Source: Lacibacter cauensis
GTDB lineage: Bacteria; Bacteroidota; Bacteroidia; Chitinophagales; Chitinophagaceae
Reading direction: 5' to 3'
Assembly (NCBI RefSeq): GCF_007830055.1
Contig: NZ_VLLE01000004.1
Span: 401,248 to 465,247 of the forward strand
DNA length: 64,000 bases
The stretch's first letter is position 1; each line of letters begins with the position of its first letter. The notes under the pieces are model-generated. The model was not told the origin of the DNA, did no database searches, and worked only from the letters and a program-made list of their open reading frames with translations. The position numbers were made by a program, and so were the translations under genes. Positions 53,102 to 58,210 of the stretch are shown piece after piece.

Positions 53102-54190
53102 ATGCGTCGTTTTTTACAGCGGCTTTTAACAAAGCCTGTTCTTCGTTTAGCCGATCGTTTTTCGAGCAGACCCGATGAGCAACGTGTGCACGATGCATTA
53201 AGCAAACTCTATGCACATACCAAAGAACATCCCGGTAAAAAAGGATTGCTGATTGAAGCAGATGCAACCACTGCCCGTTTCATCATTTTCAGCGATCAGC
53301 ACAAAGGCGCAAAAGATGGACGTGATGATTTTATGCAGGCCGAACCGAATTATCTCGCTGCATTGGAGCATTATTTCTACGAAGGCTTTCACTTGATTGC
53401 ATTGGGCGATAGTGAAGAGTTATGGGAGAACACAGTGGGACCTGTAAAAGCAAACAACAAATTAAGTACAGCAGCAGAGAAAAAATTTCTCGATCATCAA
53501 CGCTTCACCAAAGTGTTCGGCAATCATGATCTGTTCTGGAATAACGATCCGTTTGCAGGATTACAATTGCTGAGTATGTACAGAGATACGGTACGCATTT
53601 ATGAAGCGGTGATACTGCAAATGAAATTATCCGAAAAACAGTTTGACATTTTTCTTACGCATGGCCATCAGGGTGATGGACAAAGTGATGGCAATCCGTT
53701 TAGTGCATGGTTTGTATCGAGAGTGTGGGGACCGTTGCAAAGCTATCTCAATATCAATCCCAATACTCCTGCTGCCAGTAAAGAATTAAAAACAGTACAC
53801 AACCGTTTTATGTACGAATGGAGTAAGCAGGAACAAAATCCTGTGCTCATCACCGGCCATACACATCAACCCGTATTTGCATCGCTTACACACCTGGAAC
53901 GTTTGTACAAACAACTCATCGAAGCCAAGCAGCAAAACAACGAGGTCGTCATTGAAAAACTCAACAAAGAAATTCAATTCCGGCAGGAAGAATATGATTT
54001 TGTAAACAGCAACTATGCCAATATGCGTCCGTATTATTTCAATACCGGTTGTTGCTGTTACAGTGATGGTGATATTACCGGTATTGAAATAGCCGAGGGT
54101 ATGATCCGTTTAATAAAATGGAAAAAGAACGGAGCGATTTCGGCACGAGAAGTATTGGAAGAAATGAAACTCAGCGATCTGCCTGTTTAG
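53102..54190 (+). CDS. Metallophosphoesterase
   Basis: A 362-residue calcineurin-like phosphoesterase. The dinuclear metal motifs are in order: FIIFSDQHKGAKDG (D-x-H), HLIALGDSEELWE (GD), FGNHDLFW (GNHD), FLTHGHQGDGQ (H) and LITGHTHQPVF (GHTH). No signal peptide is present, so a cytosolic role is likely. Residues 265-300 form a charged helix (KLNKEIQFRQEEYDFVNS). Its substrate is not clear; UDP-diacylglucosamine hydrolases share the motifs but are shorter. ATG start 30 bp after the terminator. It is followed 23 bp later by the DUF2490 gene, likely as one transcript. Confidence 0.88.
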   Translation: MRRFLQRLLTKPVLRLADRFSSRPDEQRVHDALSKLYAHTKEHPGKKGLLIEADATTARFIIFSDQHKGAKDGRDDFMQAEPNYLAALEHYFYEGFHLIALGDSEELWENTVGPVKANNKLSTAAEKKFLDHQRFTKVFGNHDLFWNNDPFAGLQLLSMYRDTVRIYEAVILQMKLSEKQFDIFLTHGHQGDGQSDGNPFSAWFVSRVWGPLQSYLNINPNTPAASKELKTVHNRFMYEWSKQEQNPVLITGHTHQPVFASLTHLERLYKQLIEAKQQNNEVVIEKLNKEIQFRQEEYDFVNSNYANMRPYYFNTGCCCYSDGDITGIEIAEGMIRLIKWKKNGAISAREVLEEMKLSDLPV

Positions 54191-54213
54191 TGTTTTGCAC
54201 CTACTTTTGCGGC

Positions 54214-54984
54214 ATGAAATGGAATCAAATCAGTTGTCTGCTTGTTTGTGCACTATTTTTAACAAACATAAGTTTTGCACAAAACACCCGCATTATTGAT
54301 TACAACAAAATCGGTTGGTACGCAGCAACCGGTACGTTTAGTTTTAACAGCAAATGGAGTGCACATCTCGAATACCAATGGCGCAGGGAAGATTATGGAA
54401 AGACCTGGCAACAGAGTTTATTGCGCACCGGCATTAACTATCACGCCAACAACAGTACCACCTTACGTATTGGTTATGCATGGGCCGAAACATATCCGTA
54501 TGGCGATTATCCCATCAATGGCTTTGGTAAACAATTTACCGAACACCGCATGTACGAAGTAGCTACCTTGGCGCAACGTAGCGGTACAGTTGATATCAGT
54601 CACCGCATCATGCTGGAGCAACGTTGGTTACCACGCTATGCATCGGCTGCATCGGTTAAACCCGACGATTGGTTATTCATGAACCGTGCCCGTTACATGC
54701 TGCGTTTACAACATGCCTTAAAAGGCAAAACACTGGAAGATAAAGAACCCTACATTGCTGCTTACGATGAAATACTGATTAGCTTTGGCAAAAATGTAAA
54801 CGAAAATATTTTCGATCAGAACCGGTTGGGTGTTTTAGTCGGCTATCGTTTTTCAAAAAGCTTTCGTTTAGAAGCAGGCTATCTTGGACAGGTTGTGCAA
54901 TTAGGCAGAGAAATCGGCGGACGAAATGTATTTCAACACAACAACGGAGTGATTGTTTCTTCGATTGTGAATGTGAATTTATAA
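54214..54984 (+). CDS. DUF2490 outer-membrane-like protein
   Basis: A 256-residue exported protein. The signal is MKWNQISCLLVCALF...ISFAQ (cleaved near residue 22). The mature part is rich in alternating hydrophobic strands ending in aromatic residues (WSAHLEYQWRREDYGKTWQQ, LGVLVGYRFSKSFRLEAGYL, HNNGVIVSSIVNVNL), the DUF2490 pattern of a small beta-barrel. A longer frame reaches back inside the phosphoesterase gene, but the ATG after its stop and the signal peptide fix this start. Function unknown. Confidence 0.88.
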   Translation: MKWNQISCLLVCALFLTNISFAQNTRIIDYNKIGWYAATGTFSFNSKWSAHLEYQWRREDYGKTWQQSLLRTGINYHANNSTTLRIGYAWAETYPYGDYPINGFGKQFTEHRMYEVATLAQRSGTVDISHRIMLEQRWLPRYASAASVKPDDWLFMNRARYMLRLQHALKGKTLEDKEPYIAAYDEILISFGKNVNENIFDQNRLGVLVGYRFSKSFRLEAGYLGQVVQLGREIGGRNVFQHNNGVIVSSIVNVNL

Positions 54985-54992
54985 ACGCTACT

Positions 54993-55406
54993 TTCATCCC
55001 GAGGTACGAGGGATCTCTTAAACTTCAAGATGTTTAATCATTTGAATGGTTTCACAACTTTCAGAGTTTTCTCGTTCCTCGGCAGACGAATACAAACGTC
55101 ATCTCGACGAAGGAGAGATCTCTTAAACTTTAGCGTCCTTACAATTAACACAAGCGTGTTCAAATTTCAGCGATGCCTCGTACCTCGACATGACGAACTC
55201 GACCTTCATCCCGACGGAAGAGGGATCCCTTAAACTTCAAGATGTTTAATCATTTGCATGGTTTCACAACTTTCAGAGTTTTCTCGTTCCTCGGCAGACG
55301 AATACAAACGTCATCTCAACGAAGGAGAGATCTCTTAAATTTTAGCATCCTTAAAATTAACACAGGCGTGTTCAAATTTCAGCGATGTCTCGTGCCTCGA
55401 CATGAC
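54993..55406. repeat. Palindromic 97-bp repeat array, left part (B-A-B-A)
   Basis: Units at 55098-55194 and 55310-55406 are each exactly 97 bp (type A, starting GTCATCTCGACGAAGGAGAG and ending CTCGACATGAC). Their first and last 23 bases are inverted copies with about 18 matches. A diverged relative of about 95 bp (type B, TCATCCCGA ... CCTCGGCAGAC) precedes each, at 54993 and 55205. Every unit is separated from the next by about 10 bp, often GAATACAAAC. No gene is seen in this part. Confidence 0.9.
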
Positions 55407-55500
55407 GGATTGGAGGTGTTAATCAATTTACATCAACCAATCGTCACATCTTTTCGCTGAAAGGTATAGATATGCCTGTAATAATTATTCAAAAAGGAAA

Positions 55501-55800
55501 CTACCATTTTTCAATCTCAGTCCACAAATCAATCCACTGAGAATTAAATAGAGTAATTAGTTCATTCTTCTTGGTCCGGTTCCACTTTTTTAACTCCTTC
55601 TCTCTTGCAATGGCTTCTTCAATTCGACTGAAGTTTTCATAATAAACACAAATAGTACAATTGTATTTATCAGTAAAGCTTCCTTTGAAATAATGTTCAC
55701 GATGTTGTAAGATTCTGGTTCGAAGTTCAGAAGTTACACCAATGTAAACTACGGTACGGAGAATATTAGTCATAATATAAACAGATCCGCCATGAGCCAT
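55501..55800 (-). CDS. GIY-YIG nuclease family protein
   Basis: A 99-residue small protein made only of a GIY-YIG domain. VYIMTNILRTVVYIGVTSEL contains the two signature strands (V-Y-I and V-Y-I-G), LRTRILQHREH supplies the conserved Arg, and RIEEAIAREKELKKWNRTKK the Glu and following basic helix. Many Bacteroidota genomes carry multiple such stand-alone genes of unknown role; they may be repair or homing-type nucleases. It sits within, and interrupts, an array of 97-bp palindromic repeats. ATG start; no clear promoter. Confidence 0.9.
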   Translation of the reverse strand: MAHGGSVYIMTNILRTVVYIGVTSELRTRILQHREHYFKGSFTDKYNCTICVYYENFSRIEEAIAREKELKKWNRTKKNELITLFNSQWIDLWTEIEKW

Positions 55801-55898
55801 ACGATTGTAAACGGTTTAGCAATTGTAAAATAGAACTTGTGATTTACATTACATAATCTCTGTCTAGGTTCAAACAAGTATCCGCATTTATCCAAACC

Positions 55899-56209
55899 GT
55901 CATCTCGATAAAGAAGAGATCTCTTAAATTTTAGTGTGCTTACAATTAAAGCAAGCATGTTCAACTTTTAGTGATGTCTCGTGCGTCGACATGACGGCGA
56001 TTTTCGTCATCTCGACGCAGGAGAGATCTCTTAAATTTCAATATGCTTGAAATTAAAACAGGCGTGTTCAAATTTCAGCGATGTCTTGTACCTCGAAATG
56101 ACCAATACAACCATCATCGCAACGAAGTAGAGTTCTCTTAAATATTAGTGTGCTTACAATTAAAGCAAACGTGTTGAACTTTTAGGGATGTCTCGTGCCT
56201 CGACATGAC
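55899..56209. repeat. Palindromic 97-bp repeat array, right part (A-A-A)
   Basis: Three type A units at 55899-55995, 56006-56102 and 56113-56209, all 97 bp and each 107 bp from the next (10-bp spacers GGCGATTTTC and CAATACAACC). Consensus ends are GTCATCTCGA and TCGACATGAC. The AGAGATCTCT palindrome near the left end is kept in most copies, and the third copy is the most diverged (ATCATCGCAACG start). Confidence 0.92.
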
Positions 56210-56230
56210 CTACAAAATCATCGGGATGGC

Positions 56231-56271
56231 AATAAAATAAGAGGGCCGCTTTGCGGCCCTCTTATTTTATT
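56231..56271. terminator. Bidirectional terminator, GC-rich stem
   Basis: GAGGGCCGC-TTT-GCGGCCCTC with an A/T extension gives a 19-bp stem (56231-56249 and 56253-56271). It overlaps the stop codon of the M1 peptidase gene, and with T-rich flanks it can end transcription from both sides. Confidence 0.92.
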
Positions 56272-58210
56272 GTTTATTCCAGATGTTATTGCTGAAGTTC
56301 ATATCAGGTAATCGCTTCTCCGGATCAACCACTACTTCTTTTACATCAGCTTTGGTTTCTACCGCTATATTCCAGGTATCACCACGCTGCCAAACTTCTA
56401 CCGGCAATTTAATCAGTTGTGTTTCACCGTTCACATCTACAACTTTCACAGTAACAGGCATCGGCATTTTTTCCAGCAACTGGATAGTGATCATGGTACC
56501 GCTCTTCCCATTCGACTTCAATGGTTTTACTTCCTTCACTGCTACATCAAACTTCCAGGTGTTCAATGCCCAGCCACGCCAGAACCAGTTCAGGTCTTCA
56601 CCTGCAACATTCTCAATCGTATGAAAGAAATCCCAAGGTGTGGGATGTTTGAATGCCCAGCGACGCACATATTCCTTCAACGCACGGTCGAAACGTTCTG
56701 CCCCCAATACTTCGTTACGCAAAACATACAACATCATACCGGGTTTAAAGTAAGCTGCCACACCCAGATTTTGTTGTTGCACCACATCTGCACCATTCAA
56801 CATACCATCCATCTTATCGCCAAAAACATAATTGGCCATACCGCTTACACTCGGTACTTCTTTATACTCTCCGTTGTTAAACGCTTCACTTGAAAGAATA
56901 TTGATGAACGTATTAAAGCCTTCATCCATCCATGCAAATTTGCGTTCGTTACTGCCCACAATCATCGGGAACCAGCCATGACCAAACTCATGATCGGTTA
57001 CACCAAACAAACCCGCTTCTGTTGCACCTGCACTGCAAAACACAATGCCGGGATATTCCATACCACCAACAATACCTGCAACGTTGGTTGCTACAGGATA
57101 AGGAAACTCAAACAAATACTTGCTGTAAAATTCAATGCTTGCTTTCGTATATTCGGTTGAACGGCGCCAGTCGTTCGCATCTTTTTTTGATGCACTTTCT
57201 TTCGGATACACACTCACCGCCATTGCTTTTTTTCCGCTGGGTAAATTGATGCGAGCTGCATCCATGATAAACGCAGTACTTGCTGCCCAGGCAACATCAC
57301 GTGTATTCTCACATTTGAATTTCCAGGTGGTGAACGGATTACCCGGACGTGAAGAAGCTTTACCCACTTCATCAGCCGAACGGATCACCACTGTTTTATC
57401 GCTGTTCATCGCTTCGCCCCAACGTTTGATCTGCTCTGCTGTAAAACAATCCTGCGCATTCTGCAAACCACCACTGCCCACAACAATCATGTTTGATGGA
57501 GCTGTAATGCTGTAATCGATTGTACCATATTCTAAATAAAACTCACCTGCACCGAGATAAGGATTGACATTCCATCCATTGATATCATCGTACACACATG
57601 CACGTGGAAACCATTGCGCCACTTCATAAATCCAACCATCTTTTTGTTTTAAACGGCCCATCCGGTCGGTTCCATACTCCGGAATGGTAAAGCCATATTC
57701 AATGATCACTTTCACCGAACCGCCTGTTGCTTTCACCGCTGCTGGTAACCACACCTGCATACGTGTATCAATCACTTCGTATTGCGCATCAGTTGTTTTG
57801 CCATCCTGCTCAATCTTTACTGCTTTAATGCCGTATCCATCGGTAAACTCGCCATTGGCCCAACGACCACCTAATGCTGTTGTTGTAGCCGATGCCCTTG
57901 AATCTTTGCGATAGATATTCTGGTCTAACTGCAGCCACAGAAAACGCAATGCATCCGGACTATTATTGGTGTAGTGCAATGCAACTTTTCCTTTTACCGT
58001 ATGCTCGGCAGGATCGAGTGTGGCCTCAATTTTATAATCGGCTTTGTTCTGCCAATACTTTGGTCCGGGTTCGCCGCTGGCACTTCTGTACTCGGTACCG
58101 AAGTTGGGATAAAAGAACGGGTGAAAGGCTTCCCGATGATCGTACTTGCTTTGTCCGAAACCTGCAAACGCAATGCAGATACTGACAATCGCTAAACTGA
58201 TTTGCTTCAT
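56267..58210 (-). CDS. M1 family aminopeptidase-like metallopeptidase
   Basis: A 647-residue exported zinc peptidase. The signal [20 protein letters not shown] is cleaved near residue 20. The zinc motif is in [13 protein letters not shown] (H-E-F-G-H) with the third ligand Glu in [11 protein letters not shown] 18 residues on. [14 protein letters not shown] is the substrate-binding G-x-M-E-x motif, and [15 protein letters not shown] is the N-terminal domain typical of Bacteroidota homologues. Probably a periplasmic peptidase in nutrient use. ATG start. Confidence 0.92.

Follow-up and report, generated by a model that had tools for sequence, protein, structure and literature searches.

A clade of lone GIY-YIG nucleases as a candidate partner of CGTC-type palindromic repeats

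Short palindromic repeats occur widely among bacteria, and for the GTAG half of these the enzyme is known. For the CGTC super-family, which occurs in Bacteroidetes and Proteobacteria and includes Neisseria dRS3 and Rickettsia RPE-4/RPE-6, the parts of Di Nocera, De Gregorio, and Rocco (2013; PMC3733652) drawn on here describe REPs apparently without a dedicated transposase and suggest that CGTC REPtrons may have vanished early. In a stretch of Lacibacter cauensis DNA (64,000 nucleotides, in the following "the window"), an array of CGTC-tagged repeats is split by the gene of a stand-alone GIY-YIG nuclease. The question raised by this locus is whether the nuclease is the missing gene partner of these repeats or is their neighbor for another reason. 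As discussed below, the nuclease belongs to a clade whose genes lie beside or between CGTC-type hairpins. We regard this GIY-YIG clade as a strong candidate for the partner of CGTC REPs, the activities that we infer for it being cleavage and copying of the repeats. With a conserved nuclease clade placed beside or between CGTC repeats, the question of the missing transposase becomes a simple biochemical test.

The array and its hairpins

The array (Table 1) sits between two convergent ORFs, which end at 54984 and 56267, in a genome of 4.95 Mb (10 contigs). The bordering genes, 54118-54984 and 56267-58210, converge on the array, and their products are presumably an outer-membrane beta-barrel-like protein and an M1-type peptidase-like protein, respectively. 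The perfect inverted repeat beyond the array is probably the terminator of the latter gene. An earlier note, made from the sequence alone, had described five A units of exactly 97 bp with 10-bp spacers, B units alternating with A to the left of the insert, and a 492-bp insert with a stand-alone GIY-YIG gene that splits the array between A2 and A3. The coordinates agree with this layout, including the B starts at 54993 and 55205 (the B units are about 95 bp long), and the gene in the insert matches PF01541 (E=1.5e-14). The motif search located four A starts and four of the five right ends, while the start of A5 and the right end of A3 deviate from the motifs used. An Rfam search of the region gave no match at the curated threshold and 12 weak matches.

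Table 1. Features of the array and its surroundings, in positions of the window
Feature	Position	Strand	Basis or remark
Whole array, REPIN-like units B1-A1-B2-A2-[GIY-YIG block]-A3-A4-A5	54993..56209	.	sequence
Unit B1, B kin of A, right hairpin degenerate	54993..55087	+	right edge read from sequence
Unit A1, 97 bp, two facing hairpins: GTCATCTCGACGAAGGAGAGATC + reverse GTCATGTCGAGGTACGAGGCATC	55098..55194	+	motif search
Unit B2	55205..55299	+	right edge read from sequence
Unit A2, 97 bp	55310..55406	+	motif search
492-bp block with nuclease gene, A2/A3 interval	55407..55898	.	sequence
Stand-alone GIY-YIG nuclease gene, 99 aa, in repeat-linked clade	55501..55800	-	ORF + PF01541
Unit A3, 97 bp	55899..55995	+	start = motif, right end read from sequence
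Unit A4, 97 bp	56006..56102	+	motif search
Unit A5, 97 bp, left tag mutated (ATCATC)	56113..56209	+	start read from sequence, right end = motif
Perfect inverted repeat, 20 bp, 3-bp loop, outside array	56230..56272	.	adjoins end of gene 56267-58210

The note had also proposed that each unit could fold into one long hairpin, like a REPIN or MITE. The units are indeed REPIN-like, but two short facing hairpins fit better than one 97-bp palindrome; the 23-nt imperfect inverted ends are present, with 17 of 23 positions matching (A1, A2, and A4) instead of the 18 counted before. Each A unit consists of two facing hairpins that read inwards from a (C)GTC tag, in the form GTCAT-NN-C-9 nt-G-N'N'-ATC, and the stem of the window hairpins is 5 bp and the loop 9 nt long, with CTC as the tail. 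The left hairpins of A1-A4 carry the tag CGTCAT and that of A5 is mutated; the right ends have CGTC in A1-A3 and GGTC in A4-A5. In the left hairpins of A1-A4, which read GTC-AT...AT-C, the complementary AT provides the first two stem pairs, a feature of which the genome-wide patterns are no test because they fix the AT letters.

Genome-wide, the host has 67 sites of GTCATNNCGASGNASGAGNNATC (with up to two mismatches) versus two for the backwards pattern, and 41 exact sites of GTCATNNCGANGNANGAGNNATC. The exact sites comprise eight NN types, and NN and N'N' are complementary in 37 of the 41. Counting exact-pattern partners only, 11 neighboring pairs (22 of the 41 exact sites) face each other, with a total length of 73-112 bp. 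Exact copies were found in seven of the 20 genomes searched (host included), all seven of the same genus, and the backwards control gave none.

Linkage of the nuclease clade to CGTC hairpins

In the seven genus genomes, an exact site is found no more than 300 bp away from six of the 42 small GIY-YIG genes (0.11 expected), and none of the 15 large GIY-YIG genes (UvrC and similar) has one within 2 kb. Most repeats of the host genome are far from any GIY gene, and strict hairpins are missing from the surroundings of its two further stand-alone GIY genes, as non-autonomous copies and other GIY subfamilies would give. According to the earlier note, the association would be chance if the units lay mostly far from GIY-YIG genes, or if the nuclease gene was usually outside such arrays. 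The former is what the host genome shows; the clade gene, however, is usually inside or beside repeats. The pairing that the note suspected far exceeds chance in the genus and, as described below, in 37 related loci and in Pseudomonadota. With a generic covarying motif, 63 small GIY matches in 20 relatives gave 355 sites/Mb within 1 kb versus 15 sites/Mb beyond, nine of the 63 having a site at the nearer distance. Not included are six small GIY matches that are weak or broken (G002:C42, G009:C153:46389, G010:C4:1330560, G013:C114, G014:C1:521677, and G018:C123).

Relatives of the window protein were found at 37 loci, by title mostly of Bacteroidota and also of Methylomonas, Rhodocyclaceae, and a Falkowbacterium. 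A strict hairpin lies within 1 kb in 30 of the 37, with 1094 sites/Mb near and 71 far. The loop sequence varies between taxa and the GTCAT...ATC frame, which the motif fixes, is constant. Local-repeat coverage exceeds 10% in 13 of 27 loci of this set and in no more than these because many loci carry one or two hairpins; moreover, many Bacteroidota loci have hairpins on one side only. A strict hairpin or inverted flanks were present in 25 of the 30 full-length loci compared with 7 of 174 random positions, seven truncated loci (L136-L142) being left out of this test and of the tree described next.

A tree of 85 small GIY-YIG proteins, based on a short alignment with a quick method and a midpoint root, contains one clade of 46 rows (SH-aLRT 92), of which 34 have a strict hairpin within 600 bp compared with none of the 39 rows outside it. 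The tree omits eight short or doubtful rows, one of which (L232) is a fragment belonging to the clade. Among the 12 clade rows without a strict hairpin, 10 have hairpins with other stems by eye, while L220 and L116 have none. The strict-or-inverted test was positive for 10 of 17 clade genes of the relatives versus 1 of 102 random positions; by eye, five of the seven failing genes have other-stem hairpins, L220 has none, and L232 is doubtful. In one genus member (G007), the clade gene (L205) is not beside the 13 exact sites of its genome, and other hairpins are seen there by eye. At another locus (L189, G014:C7), a REPIN array with a period of about 175 bp and other hairpins is likewise split by a clade nuclease gene.

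In the same genomes, none of 46 other small GIY-YIG genes, which are comparable in length, has a strict CGTC hairpin within 300 bp, and inverted flanks were seen at 7 of the 46 versus 2 of 270 random positions. A motif-free test found local repeats at 12 of 37 of them, without strict CGTC hairpins. Among the sampled proteins, the pairing with CGTC hairpins is restricted to the one clade. At three loci (L216, L217, and L222), non-clade small GIY-YIG genes are present as tandem duplicates, with starts 440, 352, and 403 bp apart.

A profile of 16 aligned clade members was run against a draw of 200 genomes belonging to the same phylum as the Rhodocyclaceae locus (by title, Pseudomonadota). At E<=1e-20, 37 of the 200 genomes gave 63 matches; the center of the draw, G021, was chosen for carrying the gene and is counted both here and in the Fisher table below. 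We examined 61 of the 63 matches with flanks of up to 5 kb (G021 itself and G177:C28 were left out), and these are spread over 36 genomes, not every one being independent of the rest. A strict hairpin is present within 300 bp in 32 of the 61, on both sides in 18, and the site density is 695/Mb near versus 127/Mb far. A strict hairpin or inverted flanks characterize 54 of the 61 matches versus 22 of 366 random positions, with seven failing, in a test in which nearly all matches were given standard extents of 261-267 bp from the profile match instead of the gene start and stop. A motif-free comparison of the upstream 200 bp with the reverse complement of the downstream 200 bp detected inverted flanks in 41 of 59 genes and in none of 354 random positions; with swapped flanks, 13 of 295 pairs reached the threshold, probably because some genomes give several genes with one repeat. 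A relaxed "GTC + 7-bp stem" detector was dropped as unspecific, since 46 of 366 controls were positive.

The hairpins are also oriented. Upstream of the Pseudomonadota matches, 22 are forward and 7 reverse, and downstream 33 are reverse and 12 forward; 16 of the 22 and 17 of the 33 in the favored orientations lie within 60 bp of the profile match. These counts indicate that in Pseudomonadota the gene is typically sandwiched in a facing hairpin pair with the tags outward.

Starting from the repeats, 25 of the 200 Pseudomonadota genomes have at least six exact copies of one CGTC-1-like form, and such repeat-rich genomes make up 13 of the 37 gene-positive versus 12 of the 163 gene-negative ones (Fisher p=4e-5, phylogeny ignored). 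The 12 repeat-rich genomes that are gene-negative at E<=1e-20 include those with 711, 152, 113, and 63 copies. In a new search at E<=1e-5, nine of the 12 were still without a match, the 152-, 113-, and 63-copy genomes among them, and two had weak matches without strict hairpins. Repeat-rich genomes without a detectable clade gene suggest that the repeats outlive the gene or that other movers exist. The 711-copy genome carries a broken clade match (E=1e-16) in a 3.2-kb locus that also holds eight strict hairpins (L389, G114:C87).

In a plasmid collection, 33 records match the clade, mainly from Rhizobium (9), Sphingobium (7), Sinorhizobium (4), and Shinella (4), and the matching proteins are annotated, if at all, as GIY-YIG family, hypothetical, or excinuclease proteins. 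On plasmid p1 of Planktothrix agardhii (L380), a related GIY-YIG gene, 53% identical to the Rhodocyclaceae one, is accompanied by GTCATTCTGAG-type repeats; its neighbors are a type IIL restriction-modification gene on one side and the DISARM gene drmA on the other. Across several phyla, clade nucleases are paired with differing hairpins.

The nuclease protein and its cassettes

PF01541 is the sole Pfam family matched by the window protein, and the HUH Y1 transposase family (PF01797) is not among its matches. No NCBIfam family was matched by the window protein, and PADLOC gave no family for three clade proteins. Residues Y8, Y19, R29, and E67, among others, are invariant in the clade alignment (16 members) and present in the window protein; we take the invariant tyrosines, R29, and E67 to be the GIY-YIG active site. 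The AlphaFold2 model has a pLDDT of 95.9. Its closest solved folds in the PDB are UPF0213 and Slx1 (best E=2.9e-3, none at E<=0.001), and the titles of the Slx1 entries refer to cleavage of branched DNA. The 99-aa protein is without an extra DNA-binding domain. It has a weak match to the phage homing-endonuclease family phrog_5123 (E=7e-4), and two other clade proteins have no match to such families. The clade gene is under purifying selection: the comparison of the window gene with L207 gives dN 0.217, dS 1.84, and dN/dS of about 0.12, dS of the genus pairs being near saturation and in one case not computable, and two Sphingobium copies give dN 0.017, dS 0.098, and dN/dS 0.17.

No neighboring genes are common to the window gene and its three relatives of 65-80% identity, and of the 17 loci compared, only L212/L213 and L185/L205 were clearly syntenic. 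In A. lipoferum 4B, a REPIN-gene-REPIN block lies between sufB and sufC. The 11 other Azospirillum records among the matches listed align to both flanks, and their interval is about 0.5 kb shorter (nearest 96.9% identity); the four relatives aligned have no such repeat at the sufB-sufC site. The simplest reading of these alignments is a gain in the A. lipoferum line. In Sphingobium, the interval from fnrL to a response regulator holds a hairpin-gene-hairpin cassette in seven plasmids and lacks it in five records. An alignment of two of the seven filled and three of the five empty sites revealed a single palindrome at two empty sites and unrelated sequence at one. The palindrome of TomTYG64 equals the outer halves of the TomMM15 filled site exactly, and that of TomTYG74 does so with small differences; the single palindrome may be either a target or a deletion product. 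Collectively, cassettes are present in some lines and absent from others at the same site, a pattern that appears to reflect movement.

A dispersed element is found in the Bacteroidales MAG Fux382_bin47 (G020), which has 22 clade-profile matches. A 26-bp terminal inverted repeat occurs in 110 copies (with up to three mismatches) across 2.2 Mb, compared with 0 for the control. Of 40 distinct repeat ends, 18 read into a nuclease gene, 21 into a hairpin array, and one elsewhere. The sole complete gene-bearing unit seen is 539 bp long and bounded by the 26-bp repeats, and its gene has an in-frame stop; hairpin-only units measure 192, 285, and 286 bp. The nuclease is the only gene seen in this inverted-repeat element of about 0.5 kb, although the assembly breaks at the repeats and may hide a partner. 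Terminal inverted repeats that bound a moved unit, as in IS elements, are present in this genome and absent from the window. Possible target-site duplications comprise 8 bp at L156 and 5 bp at L165, with none at L125 and L140, and none is consistent. In the same MAG, a 195-aa ORF (L124:9734-10321) consists of an N-terminal part ending in MPNHIHGIIIIN, which we take to belong to a RAYT-like family, fused in frame to the clade nuclease; the left terminal repeat of this copy is missing.

A proposed REPtron-like element, its rivals and known systems

The explanation that we find fairly probable is a REPtron-like element in which a GIY-YIG nuclease is the enzyme instead of the RAYT tyrosine transposase. 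The non-autonomous form would be the short CGTC-tagged hairpins (REPs), whether they stand alone, face each other in pairs (REPINs), or make up arrays, and the autonomous form would be a nuclease gene between or beside such hairpins. The 99-aa nuclease would recognize the folded repeat, as hairpin or cruciform, near the GTC tag and cut there. Repair or replication would then copy the hairpin pair, with or without the gene, to another intergenic place. That the nuclease moves CGTC-type repeats is a likely inference. A wider proposal, to which we give somewhat less than even chances, is that these loci represent a new class of minimal transposable elements in bacteria, mobilized by a single GIY-YIG nuclease of about 100 aa that recognizes CGTC hairpins. 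This class could be the origin of the CGTC REP super-family (dRS3, RPE-4/6, and the Bacteroidota GTCAT repeats) in at least three phyla, parallel but unrelated to RAYT/GTAG.

The nuclease gene might instead be selfish on its own, a homing parasite that cuts existing CGTC repeats and copies itself in while the repeats spread otherwise. We consider this unlikely. The two Sphingobium plasmids that have a single palindrome where seven relatives (two of them aligned) have hairpin-gene-hairpin are consistent with homing, as is the weak phrog_5123 match of the window protein. However, such a palindrome could also be produced by deletion between short direct repeats, the A. lipoferum block stands at a site that lacks the repeat in the four aligned relatives, and no other repeat partner was found near the exact sites, given that 0 of 28 Y1_Tnp genes lie within 2 kb of one in the seven genus genomes. 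A structure-specific housekeeping nuclease, which resolves hairpins or cruciforms of the repeats, does not move them, and is kept in their vicinity by dosage or selection, would agree with the branched-DNA nuclease Slx1 among the closest folds and with purifying selection on the gene. This role is improbable in view of the patchy occurrence (37 of 200 Pseudomonadota genomes at E<=1e-20), the differing neighbors in close relatives, the position inside sufB-sufC of one species only (among the records listed), and the 22 matches in one genome.

Yet another mover, a RAYT or other transposase, would make the nuclease gene a passenger between two repeats. RAYT genes are expected to have local repeats, Y1_Tnp genes occur in 16 of the 20 relatives, and the motif-free test detected local repeats at 8 of 19 weak Y1_Tnp genes. 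For the weak Y1_Tnp loci, a strict hairpin or inverted flanks were found in 5 of 20 versus 0 of 120 random positions; moreover, the L124 copy of the nuclease is fused to a RAYT-like fragment. Nevertheless, a strict hairpin within 1 kb is present at just 1 of the 20 weak Y1_Tnp loci, and G007 (same genus, 3 contigs, 100% complete) retains 13 exact hairpins, including three facing pairs, and has no Y1_Tnp match at E<=0.001. The host genome has only one IS200-like match and one RAYT-like gene, which is split, apparently by a frameshift, into two overlapping ORFs of 94 and 110 aa (L233:3697-4282) and has no strict hairpin in the 4 kb around it. In addition, one nuclease clade across several phyla is not expected of a passenger, and in the species named in the parts of Di Nocera et al. 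used here, no tyrosine transposase gene is flanked by CGTC repeats (PMC3733652). We therefore hold a passenger role to be very improbable. Coincidence, in which the repeats act as terminators and small genes land beside them, draws on the intergenic location of both; it is already contradicted by the 46 non-clade small GIY-YIG genes of these genomes, none of which has a strict hairpin within 300 bp, by the large ones (0 of 15), and by the far lower values for random positions in the same loci, and it retains hardly any weight.

If the REPtron-like reading holds, proteins annotated only as "GIY-YIG nuclease family" or hypothetical would acquire a role, and a new chemistry would be added to bacterial DNA mobility. 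Among known GIY-YIG proteins, the free-standing homing endonucleases of the I-TevI/Seg type combine the catalytic GIY-YIG fold with a mobile gene; here, in contrast, there is no intron and no separate DNA-binding domain in the 99 aa, and multicopy hairpins flank the gene. The small UPF0213-type GIY-YIG proteins and Slx1, the nearest PDB folds to the window protein, are to our knowledge not repeat-linked.

The CGTC super-family is described, in the parts of the 2013 paper considered here, by a terminal CGTC (or TGTC/CCTC) tag, an 8-9 bp stem, a 4-5 nt loop, a mostly CCA tail, and a predominance of inverted dimers (PMC3733652). The present repeats share the C/GTC tag, the complementary AT at the stem base, the occurrence of inverted dimers, and the intergenic location. 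The window hairpins differ in stem (5 bp), loop (9 nt), and tail (CTC), lie outside the four published families and, being unlike CGTC-1 to -4, are classed as CGTC-tagged and related only. Several Pseudomonadota cassettes (e.g., L287, L289, L290, and L301) have hairpins such as GTCATTCCCGCGAAGGCGGGAATC, with an 8-bp stem and a 4-nt loop, which would fit the published family CGTC-1. While that paper reports no dedicated transposase, the GIY-YIG partner is the addition made here. The term "GIY-YIG" is absent from the portions of the 2018 HuH survey and the 2025 RepRanger paper that were covered, and no report of a GIY-YIG/REP pairing was found among the matches listed in the PMC literature, a scope outside which subscription papers and preprints fall.

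The closest parallel is the REPtron with its RAYT (TnpA-REP). In both systems, REPs flank the enzyme gene, dispersed REPINs are non-autonomous copies, and the repeat sequence differs between genomes. They differ in that an HUH Y1 transposase is combined with a GTAG tag there and a GIY-YIG nuclease with a GTC tag here. Moreover, REPtrons do not apparently transpose as a unit, according to the part of the source used (PMC6006769), whereas presence and absence of whole cassettes is seen here. Within the reach of the present searches, no gene partner had been consistently associated with palindromic repeats of the CGTC type before this clade of lone GIY-YIG nucleases.
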